This document shows, in pieces, positions 28,627-35,811 of a stretch of 58,881 nt of DNA. This DNA comes from Candidatus Gemmiger faecavium (GTDB lineage Bacteria; Bacillota; Clostridia; Oscillospirales; Ruminococcaceae): assembly GCA_019114415.1 (NCBI GenBank), contig DXFO01000013.1:1-58881 (forward strand), read 5' to 3'. Each line of letters opens with the position of its first letter. Positions within the stretch are counted from its first letter, which is position 1. The translations under genes were made by a program, and so were the position numbers. The notes beneath the pieces are model-generated. The model was not told the origin of the DNA. It made no database searches and worked only from the letters and a program-made list of their open reading frames with translations.

Positions 28627-28642
28627 GTTAGCTGTGATTAAC
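28627..28642. promoter_or_regulatory. distal GTTAGC-N7-AAC box upstream of feo
   Basis: GTTAGCTGTGATTAAC matches the GTTAGC-N7-AAC pattern found at the feo promoter and twice at the small-RNA promoter. GTTAGC resembles one half of the DtxR/IdeR box (TTAGGTTAGCCTAACCTAA). It is 91 bp upstream of the proximal copy. Confidence 0.45.
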
Positions 28643-28705: not shown

Positions 28706-28734
28706 TTGACAACTACAGTTAGCAATATTAAACT
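28706..28734 (+). promoter_or_regulatory. feo operon promoter with embedded iron-box-like operator
   Basis: TTGACA (28706-28711), a 17-nt spacer and TAAACT (28729-28734). GTTAGC at 28718 begins a GTTAGC-N7-AAC element that spans the spacer and -10, ideal for repression by a DtxR-type iron regulator. The whole 29-nt promoter is near-identical to the minus-strand promoter at 32006-32034. The rest of 28565-28817 holds only this control region and an 84-nt leader. Confidence 0.7.
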
Positions 28735-28817
28735 ACGAATTGGAAAAAGCCGGGAACACAGCCCAGGCGCGGGGCGCCCCGGCGGCAGACGCGCCCACAG
28801 ACGAAGGAGGGGCTTCC

Positions 28818-29030
28818 ATGATGCCACTTTCCATGGCAAGACCGGGTGAGACGGTCACCATACGCAAGATCACGGGCAAGGACGATGTCCGCCAGCATCT
28901 GGCGGAGATGGGCTTTGTTGTAAATACCGAGGTCACCGTTGTGAACGAGCTGGGCGGCAGCCTGATCATACAGGTCAAGGACAGCCGCGTGGCCCTGGAC
29001 CGCACGATGGCCAACCGCGTGATGATCTGA
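28818..29030 (+). CDS. feoA: ferrous iron transport protein A, first copy
   Basis: 70 aa, SH3-like FeoA domain: 'LSMARPGETVTIRKITG', 'RQHLAEMGFVVNTEVTVVN' and 'GGSLIIQVKDSRVALDRTMANRVMI'. FeoA proteins are small cytosolic partners of the FeoB channel. ATG 28818 is chosen because AAGGAGGGG lies just upstream; extending to 28740 adds a low-complexity leader. It lies 14 nt before a second, different feoA. Confidence 0.92.
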   Translation: MMPLSMARPGETVTIRKITGKDDVRQHLAEMGFVVNTEVTVVNELGGSLIIQVKDSRVALDRTMANRVMI

Positions 29031-29044
29031 CAGGAGGGATTGTG

Positions 29045-29266
29045 ATGAAAACACTCAAAGACGCCAAGGTGGGCGATACCGTAACGGTGGCGCGCCTGCA
29101 TGGCGAAGGCCCGGTCAAGCGGCGGATCATGGACATGGGCATCACCAAAGGCACCGCCATCAAGGTGCAGAAGGTGGCGCCCCTGGGCGACCCCATGGAA
29201 CTGACCGTCCGGGGATATGAGCTTTCGGTGCGCAAGGCCGACGCCGAAATGATCGAACTGGTCTGA
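29045..29266 (+). CDS. feoA: ferrous iron transport protein A, second copy
   Basis: 73 aa, FeoA/SH3-like: 'TLKDAKVGDTVTVARLHGEG', 'KRRIMDMGITKGTAIKVQKVAPLGDPMELTVRGYELSVRKADA'. It is diverged from the first copy and has the 'LGDP' form common in FeoA of feoAAB operons. AGGAGGG sits 6 nt before ATG 29045. It lies 29 nt before feoB. Confidence 0.92.
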   Translation: MKTLKDAKVGDTVTVARLHGEGPVKRRIMDMGITKGTAIKVQKVAPLGDPMELTVRGYELSVRKADAEMIELV

Positions 29267-29295
29267 CACCGCAGAGATCGAGGGAGGAATTTGCC

Positions 29296-31479
29296 ATGTC
29301 TATCAAAATTGCCCTTGCCGGCAACCCCAACTGCGGCAAGACGACGCTGTTCAACCATCTGACCGGTTCCAACCAGTACGTGGGCAACTGGCCCGGCGTT
29401 ACGGTGGAAAAGAAGGAAGGCCGCCTCAAGGGCCGGAACGATGTCATCATCCAGGACCTGCCGGGCATCTACTCGCTGTCCCCCTACACCCTGGAGGAAG
29501 TGGTGGCCCGGAACTACCTGGTCAATGAAAAGCCGGATGTCATCCTCAATATCATCGACGGCACCAACATCGAGCGCAACCTCTACCTGACCACCCAGCT
29601 GATCGAACTGGGCATCCCGGTGGTCATGGCGGTGAACATGATCGATTTGGTGCGCAAAAACGGCGACCGCATCGATGTGAAAAAGCTGGGCGCCGCCCTG
29701 GGCTGCGAGGTGCACACCATCAGCGCCCTGAAGGGCGAGGGCTGCATCGAGGCCGCCGATGCCGCCGTCCGGCTGGCGGGCCAGCCCCGCACCGCGGAAC
29801 TTCCCCACGTGTTCACCGGCGGCGTGGAGCACGCCGTGGCCCACATCGAGGAATCCATCTCGGACAAGGTGGACCCGGGCCTGCTGCGGTGGTACGCCAT
29901 CAAGCTGTTTGAGCGGGACGAGAAGGTCCAGGCTGACCTAAAGCTGTCCGCCGACCTGGCCGCCCATATCGACGCCCACATCGCCGACTGCGAGCGGGAA
30001 CTGGACGACGATGCCGAGAGCATCATCACCAACCAGCGCTACGCCTACATCTCCTCGGTGGTGGACAAGGCAGTGGTGAAAAAGCGGGCGGCCCATGCGC
30101 TGACCACTTCCGATAAGATCGACCGCATCGTCACCAACCGTATCCTGGCCCTGCCCATTTTTGCGGCCATCATGTTTGCGGTCTACACCATCGCCATGGG
30201 CGGCACCCCCATCTCCTTCGGCACCATGGCCACCGACTGGACCAACGACGTTCTGTTCGGTGAGATCGTTCCCCCGGCGGTGGAAGGCTTTTTGACCTCC
30301 ATCGGCTGCGCCGACTGGCTGGTGTCCCTCATCAATGACGGTGTCATCGCCGGTGTGGGCGCGGTGCTGGGCTTCGTGCCCCAGATGCTGGTTCTGTTCC
30401 TCATGCTCTCCATCCTGGAGGATGTGGGTTACATGGCCCGTATCGCCTTTATCATGGACCGTATTTTCCGCAAGTTCGGCCTGTCGGGCAAGAGCTTCAT
30501 CCCCATGCTCATCGGCACCGGCTGCGGCGTTCCCGGCGTCATGGCTTCCCGCACCATCGAGAACGACCGTGACCGCAAAATGACCATCATGACCACCTGC
30601 TTCATCCCCTGCGGCGCAAAAATGCCCATCATCGGCCTGTTTGCGGGCGCTTTGTTCGGCGGCAGCGGCCTGGTGGCCACCTCCGCCTACTTCATCGGCG
30701 TGGCGGCTATTGTAGTGTCCGGCATCATGCTGAAAAAGACCCGGATGTTCGCGGGTGAGCCTTCCCCCTTTGTCATGGAGCTGCCCGCCTACCATGTGCC
30801 TGCCTGGGGCAACGTGCTGCGCGCCACCTGGGAGCGCGGCTGGTCCTTTATCAAGCGGGCCGGTACCGTCATCTTTGCCTCCAGCGTCATCCTGTGGTTC
30901 CTGCAGGGCTTCGGTTTTACCGACGGCGTTTTCGGCATGGTGGAGGACAACAACACCAGCCTGCTGGCGTCCATCGGCGGCGCGGTCTCCTTCGTCTTTG
31001 CCCCGCTGGGCTTCGGCACCTGGCAGTCCACGGTAGCCACCTTCACCGGCCTGATCGCCAAGGAGAACGTGGTCAACACCTTCGGCGTTACGTACGGCTT
31101 TGCCGAGGTCGCTGAAAACGGCGACGAGATCTGGGGCAACATTGCCGCGGACTTCACCGCCCTGAGCGCTTACAGCTTCATGCTGTTCAACCTGCTGTGC
31201 GCCCCCTGCTTTGCCGCCATGGGCGCCATCAAGCGGGAGATGAACAATCCCAAATGGACCGCCTTTGCCATCGGGTATATGTGCGTCTTTGCCTACGCGG
31301 TATCCCTGATGGTCTACCAGATCGGCGGCCTGATCACCGGCGAGGTCCCCTTCGGCATCGGCACCATCGCGGCGCTGATCGTGCTGGCGGGCATGATCTG
31401 GATGCTGGTGCGCAAAAATCCCTACGACGGCAAGGAGGAGCAGACCCTCAAGGCTTCCCGCATGGAGGCTGCCCGCTGA
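29296..31479 (+). CDS. feoB: ferrous iron transport protein B
   Basis: 727 aa, Fe(II) transporter of the inner membrane. The N-terminal G domain has G1 GNPNCGKTT (9-17), the switch 'WPGVTVEKKEG', G3 'DLPGIYSLSPYTLEE' and G4 'NMID'. A helical spacer follows, then about ten membrane helices. Two Gate motifs are visible, the first with 'GTGCGVPGVMASRTIEN' and 'FIPCGAKMPIIGLFAG', including the conserved Cys. The length is normal. GTP-dependent Fe(II) uptake is the family function. Confidence 0.97.
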   Translation: MSIKIALAGNPNCGKTTLFNHLTGSNQYVGNWPGVTVEKKEGRLKGRNDVIIQDLPGIYSLSPYTLEEVVARNYLVNEKPDVILNIIDGTNIERNLYLTTQLIELGIPVVMAVNMIDLVRKNGDRIDVKKLGAALGCEVHTISALKGEGCIEAADAAVRLAGQPRTAELPHVFTGGVEHAVAHIEESISDKVDPGLLRWYAIKLFERDEKVQADLKLSADLAAHIDAHIADCERELDDDAESIITNQRYAYISSVVDKAVVKKRAAHALTTSDKIDRIVTNRILALPIFAAIMFAVYTIAMGGTPISFGTMATDWTNDVLFGEIVPPAVEGFLTSIGCADWLVSLINDGVIAGVGAVLGFVPQMLVLFLMLSILEDVGYMARIAFIMDRIFRKFGLSGKSFIPMLIGTGCGVPGVMASRTIENDRDRKMTIMTTCFIPCGAKMPIIGLFAGALFGGSGLVATSAYFIGVAAIVVSGIMLKKTRMFAGEPSPFVMELPAYHVPAWGNVLRATWERGWSFIKRAGTVIFASSVILWFLQGFGFTDGVFGMVEDNNTSLLASIGGAVSFVFAPLGFGTWQSTVATFTGLIAKENVVNTFGVTYGFAEVAENGDEIWGNIAADFTALSAYSFMLFNLLCAPCFAAMGAIKREMNNPKWTAFAIGYMCVFAYAVSLMVYQIGGLITGEVPFGIGTIAALIVLAGMIWMLVRKNPYDGKEEQTLKASRMEAAR

Positions 31480-31566
31480 TCCTTCGGCCTGTCCTGTAAA
31501 TCCAACAACGCGCCTGCCCCGGGCCAAATGATCCCGGAGGGCGGCGCCCCGGAAAGGAGCTAGTCT

Positions 31567-31725
31567 ATGGCGACCGTAATTGTTTCTCTTGTTGTATTTG
31601 GAGCCGTGGCCTTTGTCATTGGCAGAGGCATTTACAACCGCGTCCACCGCAAGGGCGGCGGATGCAGCTGCGGCGGAGGCTGCTCCGGCTGTCCGGGCTC
31701 CTGCCTCTGCCACCCTGAAAAATAA
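31567..31725 (+). CDS. FeoB-associated Cys-rich membrane protein
   Basis: 52 aa. One membrane helix (about residues 3-19) is followed by a basic stretch and a Cys-rich tail 'GGCSCGGGCSGCPGSCLC' with seven Cys. Such peptides are commonly found after feoB in Firmicutes and probably help handle or sense iron at the cytosolic mouth of FeoB, perhaps in place of FeoC. The ATG has AAAGGAG upstream. It ends the feo operon before a terminator. Confidence 0.85.
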   Translation: MATVIVSLVVFGAVAFVIGRGIYNRVHRKGGGCSCGGGCSGCPGSCLCHPEK

Positions 31726-31759: not shown

Positions 31760-31805
31760 AAAAGCCCCGGGACGTGCCGCTGCCTGCGGTGCGCCCGGGG
31801 CTTTT
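31760..31805 (+). terminator. rho-independent terminator of the feo operon
   Basis: AAAAGCCCCGGG (31760-31771) pairs perfectly with CCCGGGGCTTTT (31794-31805); an inner GCCGC/GCGGT helix fills the loop. Confidence 0.93.
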
Positions 31806-31881
31806 CCCTGTGTGCCGTCCGGGATTGACCCGGCGGGGCCCGGCCAAGGAGGGGAAAGGCAAGCCGCCCCTTGTCTGCCAC

Positions 31882-31999
31882 AAACACAAAAGGCGCGCCG
31901 CGGGCAAGCGGTGCGCCTTTTGTGCTGCTGTATATGCTTTCATCAGGAGATGGGAGCTGTTGAAATCAGGCAAGGCTCTTTGTTGTGGAGCCTTTCGAT
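31882..31999 (-). ncRNA. candidate iron-responsive small regulatory RNA convergent with feo
   Basis: About 118 nt on the minus strand from a start about 7 nt after the -10 at 32006. In 5'-3' order: stem AAGGCUC/GAGCCUU (plus 31972-31978 with 31988-31994, 9-nt CACAACAAA loop); a single-stranded stretch; CUCCC followed by CAUC-UCCU-GAUG (31941-31952), a hairpin with anti-Shine-Dalgarno UCCU in its loop; then a 14-bp terminator with UUUUGUGUUUG. No plausible ribosome site and ORF are present. The promoter nearly copies the feo promoter. Exposed C-rich/UCCU loops are the seed type in iron-sparing sRNAs such as FsrA and IsaR1. Inference from sequence only; ends are approximate. Confidence 0.6.
31888..31921. 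terminator. hairpin terminator, small RNA (-) and feo readthrough (+)
   Basis: AAAAGGCGCGCCGC (31888-31901) pairs with GCGGTGCGCCTTTT (31908-31921), loop GGGCAA. There is a T-run on either strand: TTTTGTG on plus, TTTTGTGTTTG on minus. It can act in both directions. Confidence 0.8.
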
Positions 32000-32005
32000 G
32001 TGTAT

Positions 32006-32034
32006 AGTTTAACATGGCTAACCCGTGTTGTCAA
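32006..32034 (-). promoter_or_regulatory. minus-strand promoter with feo-like operator
   Basis: On the minus strand TTGACA (32034-32029), a 17-nt spacer and TAAACT (32011-32006), with GTTAGC starting six bases after the -35 exactly as at feo. Identity to the feo promoter is 23 of 29 positions. The GTTAGC-N7-AAC element covers 32007-32022. No coding gene follows on this strand. Confidence 0.7.
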
Positions 32035-32042
32035 CGGCTAAC
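32027..32042. promoter_or_regulatory. second GTTAGC-N7-AAC box at the small-RNA promoter
   Basis: On the minus strand GTTAGCCGTTGACAAC overlaps the -35. It is centred 20 bp, about two helical turns, from the box at 32007-32022, which would let two regulator dimers bind on one face. The remaining stretch 32043-32264 shows nothing I can assign. Confidence 0.45.
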
Positions 32043-33560: not shown

Positions 33561-34970
33561 TCAGCCCAGCCATGCCCGGGCCAGAGCCTGGGCCGCGGCG
33601 GGAATGTCCTCGTCGGCCAGGGCGGCGTAGCCTGCCACCACGGTGTCGGAGGGACAGAGTTCCGGCCGGGCCAGGTAATATTCGCTCAACCCGTGGAGCA
33701 GAACCCCCTCCCGCCCGGCGGCCTCCACCATGGCGGCCTCGCCCCCCGCGCCGGGCAGGGTGAGCAGCAGATGCAGCCCCGAATGCCGGCCCCGGATGGT
33801 CAGTTCCGGCCCCAAAGCCTCGGATAGGGCGGCGGTCAGGTGTTCCATCCGCTTTTTGTAGGCCAGGCGCATCCGGGCCAGGTGCCGGGTAAAATAGCCG
33901 CCGGTCATGAACCGGCAGAGGGTCTGCTGTTCAAACCGGCTGACGGTGTTGGAATAGAGGGCGAAATCCCGGCGGTAGCGGTCCAGCAGGGCCAGGGGCA
34001 GCACCATGCAGGCAATGCGGATGCCGGGGGCCAGGCTTTTGGAAAAGGTGGTCAGATAGACCACGGGGCCGTCCGGGCCGGCCATGCCCTGCAGACTGGG
34101 CAGGGGACGAATGTCGAACCGGAACTCCGAGTCGTAGTCGTCCTCCAGGATATACCGCCCCGGCACTTCCCGGGCCCAGGCCAGCAGCTGCGCCCGGCGG
34201 GGGGCGGGCATGGTCACGCCGGTGGGGAAGTGGTGGCTGGGGGTGATGTAGCACAGGTTGGCCCCGGTGGCGATCAGCCCCTCCACCGAAAGCCCGCCCC
34301 GGTCGATGTCGGCGGGCAGGCAGGGGATGCCGCTGTTCTGCAGCACCGCCCGCGCCCGGGAATAGCCGGGGTTTTCCACCGCGGCGGTGCCCCCCGCAAA
34401 CAGATGGGCCAGGCATCCCAGCAGGTACTCGATGCCCGCGCCCACCACCACCTGTTCCGGGGTGCAGCTGACGCCACGGTAGGCGGCAAGATACTGGGCA
34501 ATGGCTGCCCGCAGGTCGGCGTCGCCCTGGGCTTCGCCGCGCTGGAGCAGGCCGGGGCTGTTGTACAAAAGGTCCCGCTGCAGCCTGCCCCAGCTCCGGG
34601 CCGGGAACAGCGCCGTGTCCACGCCCACCGTGGACAGGTCGTACCGCGGCCCCGACGCCGGGATGGGGGCCTGCCGGGCCGGACGGCGGGCAGGCTCGGG
34701 CCGGGGCGCGGGGGCCTCGGCGTACAGCATACCGCCGGTCTCCTGCACAAAGAATCCCCGGCGGGGGCGGCTCTCGGCCAGACCCTCGGCGGCCAGCATC
34801 TGGTAGGCGGTGTCCACCGTGTTGACGCTGACCCCCAGCCGTTCCGCCATGGTGCGCCGCCCGGGCAAAGGCCGCCCCGGGGCCAGCACACCGGAGCGGA
34901 TCTCCCCGGCAAGGGCAAGGTAGAGCTGTTCATATAAGGGGATCCGGCTTTCAGGATAGAGTTCGATCAT
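33561..34970 (-). CDS. MocR/PdxR-type GntR regulator with aminotransferase domain
   Basis: 469 aa. An N-terminal winged helix of the GntR type (about 1-75, 'PLYEQLYLALAGEIRSG', 'GRRTMAERLGVSVNTVDTAYQMLAAEG') joins a fold-type I aminotransferase-like domain. The PLP Lys lies in 'LTTFSKSLAPGIRIA', with 'LEDDYDSEFR' and 'YITPSHHFPTG' also typical. PdxR members sense pyridoxal phosphate. ATG 34970 follows GGGAGG. It is divergent from an ECF transporter S component, suggesting it controls a vitamin transporter. Confidence 0.88.
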   Translation of the reverse strand: MIELYPESRIPLYEQLYLALAGEIRSGVLAPGRPLPGRRTMAERLGVSVNTVDTAYQMLAAEGLAESRPRRGFFVQETGGMLYAEAPAPRPEPARRPARQAPIPASGPRYDLSTVGVDTALFPARSWGRLQRDLLYNSPGLLQRGEAQGDADLRAAIAQYLAAYRGVSCTPEQVVVGAGIEYLLGCLAHLFAGGTAAVENPGYSRARAVLQNSGIPCLPADIDRGGLSVEGLIATGANLCYITPSHHFPTGVTMPAPRRAQLLAWAREVPGRYILEDDYDSEFRFDIRPLPSLQGMAGPDGPVVYLTTFSKSLAPGIRIACMVLPLALLDRYRRDFALYSNTVSRFEQQTLCRFMTGGYFTRHLARMRLAYKKRMEHLTAALSEALGPELTIRGRHSGLHLLLTLPGAGGEAAMVEAAGREGVLLHGLSEYYLARPELCPSDTVVAGYAALADEDIPAAAQALARAWLG

Positions 34971-34988
34971 GGCGTCATGCCTCCCTGT

Positions 34989-35060
34989 ACTGAAACTGGC
35001 CCCATAAAAAATATATATACTGGGTATTTTTACAGAGCCAGATGTGACTATAATGGGAGC
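34989..35060. promoter_or_regulatory. divergent control region between MocR regulator and ECF S component
   Basis: A consensus TATAAT lies at 35049-35054 for the rightward gene. Just upstream is an AT-rich tract with the palindrome ATACTGGGTAT and flanking GGCCC/GAGCC-type repeats, plausible MocR binding sites. The leader after the -10 is too short for a riboswitch. Confidence 0.45.
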
Positions 35061-35127
35061 ATACCTTCCCCGCAGCGGTTTGTCAAGCGGGGACAGGGAG
35101 TTCATGGTAAAGAGAGGGGACCCTGTT

Positions 35128-35811
35128 ATGGTCGTATCCACGCCTGTTTTGTGGCTTTTGTTGTTTTTGGTCGTGTTTGCCGTGGTGTTGGGCGTGGCGC
35201 TCAGCCGCACCGAGTTTACCACCCGCAAGATCAGCATGATCGGCGTCATGGCGGCACTGAGCTTTGTGGCCTATGAGTTTTTCCGCATTCCTACGCCCAG
35301 CGGTTCGTCTTTTCATCTGGGCAATACCTTCACTGCCCTGACGGCTCTGCTGCTGGACGGTGTGTCCGGCGGCCTGGCGGGCGCCATCGGTCTGGCCCTG
35401 GCGGACATCGTGGCCGGCGATCCCGGTTATGCCATCACCACCTTTGTCCTAAAGTTCATCATCGGCATCGTCTGCGGCACCGTGGCCCACAAGGTCTTTC
35501 ACCTGCATGACCTGGACGGGGCGGGCAAGAGCAAAGCCCGGTACATGACTGCCGTGGTGTGCAGCTCTTTCAGCGGCCTGCTGGTCAATGTGTTCACCGA
35601 TCCCTTCCTGGGGTATTTCCGCAACCGGTACCTGTTCGGCCAGACGGTGGAGCTGGCGTCGGTGGTGGCCAAGGTGGCCAGCGGCGTCACCCTGGTCAAC
35701 TCGCTGATGTCCACCGCCTGCGCAGTGGTTTTGTACCTGGCATTGTACCCCGCCCTGAAAAAGGCCCGCCTGCTGCCGGGGCAAAAGAGCAGCCGCCTGC
35801 ACGCCCATTGA
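35128..35811 (+). CDS. ECF transporter S component, possibly for vitamin B6
   Basis: 227 aa, about six membrane helices. The vitamin-binding S-component pattern is visible: 'KISMIGVMAALSFVAYEFFRIP', 'FHLGNTFTALTALLLDGVSGGLAGAIG' and 'GYAITTFVLKFIIGIVCGTVAHKVFH', with the AxxxA-like helix that docks the shared EcfT. ATG 35128 has AGAGAGGGGA 8 nt upstream; 35104 is an alternative. No EcfA/EcfT here, so it should use a shared module (group II). Divergence from a PdxR-type regulator suggests pyridoxine-type cargo (PdxU-like), an inference. Confidence 0.8.
   Translation: MVVSTPVLWLLLFLVVFAVVLGVALSRTEFTTRKISMIGVMAALSFVAYEFFRIPTPSGSSFHLGNTFTALTALLLDGVSGGLAGAIGLALADIVAGDPGYAITTFVLKFIIGIVCGTVAHKVFHLHDLDGAGKSKARYMTAVVCSSFSGLLVNVFTDPFLGYFRNRYLFGQTVELASVVAKVASGVTLVNSLMSTACAVVLYLALYPALKKARLLPGQKSSRLHAH

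Follow-up and report, generated by a model that had tools for sequence, protein, structure and literature searches.

A predicted stand-alone small RNA gene with a feo-class promoter and an invariant C/U-rich core in a branch of Gemmiger

We analyzed a stretch of 58,881 nucleotides from Candidatus Gemmiger faecavium (contig DXFO01000013.1; hereafter, the window), in which comparison of homologous loci shows a self-contained predicted unit made up of a promoter, a C/U-rich core that does not vary and an intrinsic terminator. Our preferred reading, to which we assign a probability of roughly 0.6, is that this unit encodes a metal-repressed, trans-acting small regulatory RNA (sRNA) whose core would pair with ribosome-binding sites, most probably those of iron-using mRNAs. 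Iron-repressed sRNAs are known in enterobacteria. They are also known in Bacillus, Staphylococcus and mycobacteria (PMC9410917, PMC8628891). Among the open-access matches listed, we found no description of an iron-repressed sRNA for the anaerobic gut Clostridial group and none of the Gemmiger RNA itself, most subscription papers lying outside the scope of that search. Anaerobic gut bacteria of the group to which Gemmiger belongs lean on Fe-S enzymes. With Gemmiger gallinarum DSM 109015 as a named strain that carries this compact RNA and its invariant core, RNA-based iron rationing in gut Clostridia becomes directly testable.

Anatomy of the predicted RNA and its promoter

The predicted RNA of ~118 nt occupies 31883–32000 of the minus strand, with ends inferred from the sequence. 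This strand folds at -49.9 kcal/mol (z = -7.0; 0 of 200 shuffled sequences were equally stable), a stability that is mostly due to the terminator. The three structures listed in the original prediction are all present in the minimum-energy fold, namely a 7-bp 5' hairpin (31972–31994), a mini-hairpin of the form CAUC-UCCU-GAUG (31941–31952) and the terminator; the CUCCCAUCUCCU core is present as well. Both the core and the mini-hairpin lie within the stretch CUCCCAUCUCCUGAUGAAAGCAUAUACAGCA (31926–31956, minus strand), the first 18 nt of which are identical in all seven homologous loci; the whole stretch is identical in six, and the seventh (G015) has a 7-nt deletion. The terminator (31883–31926, minus strand) is a symmetric stem followed by UUUUGUGUU; it had been described as having 14 bp and is slightly longer, with 14 + 4 bp around one mismatch. 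Its symmetry might allow it to function on the opposite strand too, and the plus strand of the locus also gives a weak match to the RNA query.

The minus-strand promoter, TTGACA-17-TAAACT with a TG ahead of the -10 element, was found at 32034–32006 as predicted, and the proposed 23/29 identity to the feo promoter was confirmed by comparing the 29-base cores (28706–28734 for feo). A single-sequence scan of 12 kb gave 7 promoter-like sites vs. 2.8 expected and 16 terminator-like sites vs. 9.7 expected, and such a scan alone is weak evidence for the RNA promoter. Two operator-like 16-mers, both of which begin with GTTAGC and end with AAC, overlap the promoter elements. Specifically, GTTAGCCGTTGACAAC (32027–32042, minus strand) overlaps the -35 element (TTGACA, 32029–32034) and GTTAGCCATGTTAAAC (32007–32022, minus strand), 20 bp downstream of the first, overlaps the -10 element (TAAACT, 32006–32011). 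The first site is kept as GTTAGC-NN-TTGACAAC in 7/7 loci, and at the second GTTAG is kept in 7/7 and GTTAGC in 6/7 (GTTAGA in G015), together with ATG-N-TAAACTA.

Pattern searches placed the feo promoter of the window (TTGACA...GTTAGCAATATTAAACTA; 28706–28735, plus strand) in the same class, and GTTAGCNATNNTAAACTA at 0 mismatches occurs at only two sites in the genome, i.e. at the RNA promoter and at feo; a further GTTAGCTGTGATTAAC site lies at feo (28627–28642). Across 35 genomes of the genus, the promoter-class pattern had 29 sites, 26 at feo and three at the RNA (reversed control, 0), and was absent from 10 genomes; 11 of the 26 feo sites were assigned by eye from FeoA-like frames and 15 by their position beside feo DNA matches. 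A narrower pattern had 10 sites (seven RNA, three feo) and caught the four RNA promoters that fall outside the broad pattern with their 18-base spacer. Of note, both patterns were built from the feo and RNA promoters, so that their specificity is partly built in. The feo and RNA promoters of the window have imperfect GTTAGC sites (two copies at the RNA) and no full GTTAGC-N4-GCTAAC repeat. Among 27 feo loci of the genus, RTTAG-N6-CTAAY lies upstream in 19 and the perfect GTTAGC-N4-GCTAAC in eight, the feo of the window not being one of these.

Conservation and distribution

The exact 18-nt core behind the same promoter was found in seven of the 35 genus genomes (G000, G005, G009, G015, G020, G022 and G032), and because core and promoter are conserved in this way, the locus appears to be beyond chance. 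Averaged over all pairs of the seven loci, identity is 0.30 across the 60 bases ahead of the promoter and 0.85 within it, falls to 0.39 in the 5' arm, reaches 1.00 in the 18-nt core, and is 0.85 for the terminator and 0.23 beyond that, a profile that we read as the conservation signature of a small RNA gene standing by itself.

Covariation had been proposed as a check on the three hairpins. In the alignment of the seven loci, 4 of the 21 terminator pairs are altered on both sides, and the covariation score of the terminator pairs was reached by 0 of 500 shuffles. Of all 175 cells (25 pairs in seven loci), 96% are paired vs. at most 52.5% when the alignment was slid; there are 8 further pair types, and 495 of 500 shuffles had as many or more (mean 9.3). 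The pairs of the mini-hairpin are invariant in all seven loci, and for these no covariation signal is possible either way. For the 5' hairpin, structural conservation is only partly supported: less than 5% of 500 shuffles were equally stable in three of the seven loci (G000, G020 and G022) and 7.4% in G009 and G015, and the hairpin is unsupported in G005 and G032, in which 40–56% of 500 shuffles were equally stable.

The promoter and the UCCU loop, whose conservation among close relatives was at issue in the original prediction, are kept in the closest relatives, and the exact core was not found in the other 28 of the 35 genus genomes, many of which are incomplete and eight of which are listed as 99% complete. 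Because the core was not found in these 28 genomes, the RNA does not belong to the feo response of the genus in general. Core matches with two mismatches in G007 and G013 were rejected as chance, since the 400 bases inspected at each showed no promoter of this kind.

A search of 84,980 genomes of named species for the exact 18-nt core, which is blind to core variants, gave 11 stretches. Six have the promoter and are all titled Gemmiger or Subdoligranulum; Gemmiger gallinarum DSM 109015 is among them, and the names of four of the six records point to chickens. The five promoter-less exact cores (Lachnospiraceae, Chthonomonas, Bacillus, Verrucomicrobiota and Calditrichota) were set aside as chance. 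We also searched 396 genomes of the family with a covariance model of core and terminator under Infernal's stricter filters. At E ≤ 0.01, 86 genomes had a match, and scores above 100 bits were confined to G000, G009 and G022, the carriers in this sample, the next score being 46.6 bits. None of 27 lower matches (L052–L078) has any of three 10–12-base pieces of the core, and these matches were rejected; the 24 lower matches that were inspected look like plain terminators except L071, which lies at a contig end where the match was not covered. Thus, in this 396-genome sample, the low-scoring matches of which were inspected in part, no relative of the RNA was found outside the genus. Because the six best DNA matches to the feoA region of the window's genome, itself included, all carry the RNA, the distribution suggests one gain in a single Gemmiger branch; the seventh carrier, G032, has no feo DNA match.

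Independence from the feo operon

In the window, the RNA gene is convergent with a feo operon on the plus strand (28818–31725) that comprises two feoA genes, feoB and a gene for a FeoB-associated Cys-rich protein (Pfam PF04023 twice, PF02421/PF07664 and PF12669, respectively). The predicted convergence with feo is kept in four of the seven carriers: in G005, G009 and G020 (by tblastn), as in the window, the RNA converges with genes for FeoB and the FeoB-associated protein. It does not extend to G022 and G032, in which no FeoB-like gene was found in 18–19 kb around the RNA. In G022 the RNA and feo share a contig at a distance of ~119 kb, and in G032 the RNA adjoins a MocR-like gene (by eye). 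In G015, no convergent feo was found in a search up to the contig end, which cuts the view. Because the unit is kept while its neighbors differ in G022 and G032, the RNA is most simply regarded as an independent unit, neither an antisense RNA of feo nor the leader of one gene, and both of these readings were rejected. With regard to the properties of an independent trans-acting sRNA, we found a promoter and an intrinsic terminator of its own, no conserved ORF, and conservation apart from its neighbors.

A putative iron regulon and its candidate repressor

The pattern GTTAGCNNNNNNYAAC gave 39 rows in the seven carriers (palindromes counted twice) vs. 12 for the reversed pattern. Sites of the GTTAGC-N4-GCTAAC type also lie near genes for DUF3793, flavodoxin, ABC transporter and ZIP transporter proteins, and other GTTAGCNNNNNNYAAC sites are near methyltransferase or enolase genes or near no obvious metal gene. 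As a set, the genes with GTTAGC repeats look like an iron regulon, and the operator of the genus outlines a candidate regulon that can be tested.

Several of these sites deserve separate mention. Between divergent genes for pyruvate formate-lyase (PFL) and pyruvate:ferredoxin oxidoreductase (PFOR) in G000 (C41:29579–29594; L219 ~5580) lies GTTAGCGTTAGCTAAC, and this arrangement suggests that metal could switch pyruvate cleavage between an iron-light and an iron-rich route. Elsewhere in G000 (C32:86857–86983; L218), a DUF3793 gene is preceded by a pair of perfect GTTAGC-N4-GCTAAC palindromes spaced by 111 bases, and an ABC-transporter gene flanks them on the other side. G020 and G022 have similar GTTAGC-type sites by flavodoxin genes. 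GTTAGC-like sites are also found upstream of enolase genes in G000 (C24:16830; L195) and G032 (C37:22102; L188), for which Pfam assignment covers G000 only; iron operators would not be expected at such genes, and the sites are possibly chance.

With regard to putative control of the RNA by an iron repressor, the RNA has its promoter class and operator-like sites in common with feo, and each of the seven carriers has one DtxR-family protein (in G000, at ~9.8–10.2 kb of C43) and one to three Fur-family proteins. Inverted repeats of the GTTAGC-N4-GCTAAC look are DtxR-like rather than Fur-like, and for this reason the DtxR-family protein is the favored candidate repressor, with the Fur-family proteins of all seven carriers as possible alternatives.

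Search for targets

Target prediction with the seed of the core, which had been suggested as a check, gave no convincing targets: complementarity of the core was not above that of shuffled seeds and the 12-nt seed was not above its reversed control. Specifically, the complement of the 12-nt seed, RGGRGRTGGGRG, has 47 sites in the seven genomes, seven of which are the RNA loci themselves, vs. 48 for the reversed pattern. Among the 29 of these 47 that were inspected, one is in a ribosome-binding position, at the start of a gene for a HAD-like hydrolase in G020 (by eye), and it has no counterpart among the 29. A 16-base seed scored against 944 gene starts gave 15 duplexes with an energy of at most -18 kcal/mol, whereas 40 shuffled seeds averaged 19.3, and the observed count was reached by 23 of 40 shuffled seeds at -18 kcal/mol and by 28 of 40 at -16 kcal/mol. 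These 944 starts, called by codon usage, come from ~40% of the G009 genome. The best 30 gene starts of G009 ranked by duplex contained no coherent iron list, which, with starts called in this way, is a weak negative. Genes with a ferredoxin motif had slightly better complementarity (n = 7; one-sided p = 0.024, uncorrected and one of three tests), the top one resembling an [FeFe]-hydrogenase gene (by eye), and this signal is too weak. Genes with a radical-SAM motif had no excess (n = 12, p = 0.81).

Comparison with known RNAs

Rfam 15 (4227 families) gave 0 matches at the gathering score in the window, and the best sub-threshold match, to a Rhizobiales sRNA, lies over the terminator (19.6 bits vs. 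a cut-off of 40; E = 0.0017). By mechanism, and as likened by description rather than alignment, the nearest known RNA is MrsI of Mycobacterium tuberculosis, an sRNA of ~100 nt made under iron starvation, whose promoter contains a site for the DtxR homolog IdeR and for which a seed and the targets hypF and bfrA are reported (PMC8628891). The Gemmiger RNA is of similar size and would resemble MrsI in its promoter site, the repressor being putative in Gemmiger.

The anatomy of the Gemmiger RNA resembles that of IsrR and FsrA. IsrR of Staphylococcus, described within one genus, combines a promoter of its own that bears two operator boxes with hairpins, C-rich regions that are single-stranded and an intrinsic terminator (PMC9410917). 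Likewise, the Gemmiger RNA has its own predicted promoter, two operator-like sites, hairpins, a C-rich core and an intrinsic terminator and is found in one genus; in contrast, IsrR has 174 nt, Fur boxes, three C-rich regions and tested targets in nitrate respiration. FsrA of Bacillus subtilis is described as an iron-repressed sRNA in which a C-rich motif meets Shine-Dalgarno sequences (PMC9410917). It is Fur-controlled and assisted by FbpABC, whereas the promoter of the Gemmiger RNA has GTTAGC sites instead. RyhB is a functional analog only, as presumably is IsaR1. By appearance, then, the Gemmiger RNA may be filed with a known kind, the iron-repressed sRNAs.

Proposed function and alternatives

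Our working hypothesis, in which the repression steps are drawn from the motifs shared by the RNA and feo promoters, is that under iron-replete conditions a repressor loaded with metal, most likely the one DtxR-family protein, would occupy both of the GTTAGC sites that overlap the -35 and -10 elements and so shut off the RNA gene and feo alike, and that both would be released when iron falls. The CUCCC/UCUCCU core would then, to judge by its anatomy, pair with purine-rich ribosome-binding sites and lower the translation of selected mRNAs. By analogy with FsrA, IsrR and MrsI, we guess that these mRNAs most probably encode iron-using or otherwise dispensable proteins, and the RNA may act alongside the flavodoxin and PFL/PFOR genes that bear similar operators. 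Of the original proposal of an iron-sparing RNA, the conserved stand-alone small RNA gene, the feo-class promoter and the Clostridial lineage stand; convincing targets are missing. Because of the promoter, the regulon and the analogy with known RNAs, an iron-sparing role is plausible. The fuller picture, to which we would give slightly less than even odds, is that of a DtxR-type-controlled, iron-repressed RNA that would be the first such RNA in the gut Clostridial group; it would be an invention peculiar to one Gemmiger branch, and its invariant UCUCCU core would re-set translation toward an iron-poor metabolism based on flavodoxin and PFL.

The most serious competitor, unlikely in our estimate yet well ahead of all others, is a real iron-regulated sRNA that does not spare iron and instead acts on uptake, on the cell surface, on redox switching or as a positive regulator. 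The conservation and the promoter fit it equally, and the Fe-S motif genes as a whole (ferredoxin and radical-SAM together) have no excess complementarity (p = 0.32); on the other hand, the surrounding regulon of flavodoxin, PFL/PFOR and feo reads as iron economy, and the iron-repressed sRNAs named in PMC9410917 spare iron. Considerably less probable is that the C/U-rich core of the RNA serves to titrate or bind a protein or the ribosome, without pairing to mRNA. An 18-nt core that is invariant in 7/7 loci and for which no complementary target stands out would suit such a role, but no protein-binding motif was noticed, and in IsrR and FsrA C-rich regions are important for controlling targets (PMC9410917).

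Two further readings dispense with a regulatory RNA altogether. That the locus is a passive combination of a feo-like promoter and a bidirectional terminator giving a functionless RNA is in keeping with the strong, symmetric terminator and with the weak plus-strand match, yet we consider it quite improbable given a core identity of 1.00 between flanks at 0.23–0.30 and given that feo already has a terminator-like repeat of its own (~31760–31806). Least credible is that the transcript is the mRNA of a micro-ORF whose start codon is the ATG in GATGAAAGC. This ATG (31943–31941) lies within the conserved core and its frame in G000 is open through the terminator, but it has no Shine-Dalgarno sequence ahead of it, the frame is broken in G015 by the 7-nt deletion, and it overlaps the terminator stem. 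We rejected the microprotein on these grounds, in agreement with the predicted lack of a credible ORF in the ~118 nt. Our preferred reading remains the metal-repressed, trans-acting sRNA.

Additional features near feo

Downstream of feo in the window, two strong inverted repeats stand in series, at 31760–31806 and 31883–31926, the second being the terminator of the RNA. Farther on, at 33561–35811, a gene for a MocR-type regulator (minus strand) lies beside one for a membrane protein resembling an ECF-transporter S component (plus strand, 35044–35811; both by eye), and a promoter-like TTGACA-17-TATGCT is found at 35086–35058. Finally, in seven other Gemmiger loci with the same promoter class (L155, L160, L169, L172, L173, L174 and L178), the first feo frame opens with a FeoA-like domain, continues for ~480 amino acids and stops close to the end of the locus, and this frame may encode a FeoA-FeoB fusion.
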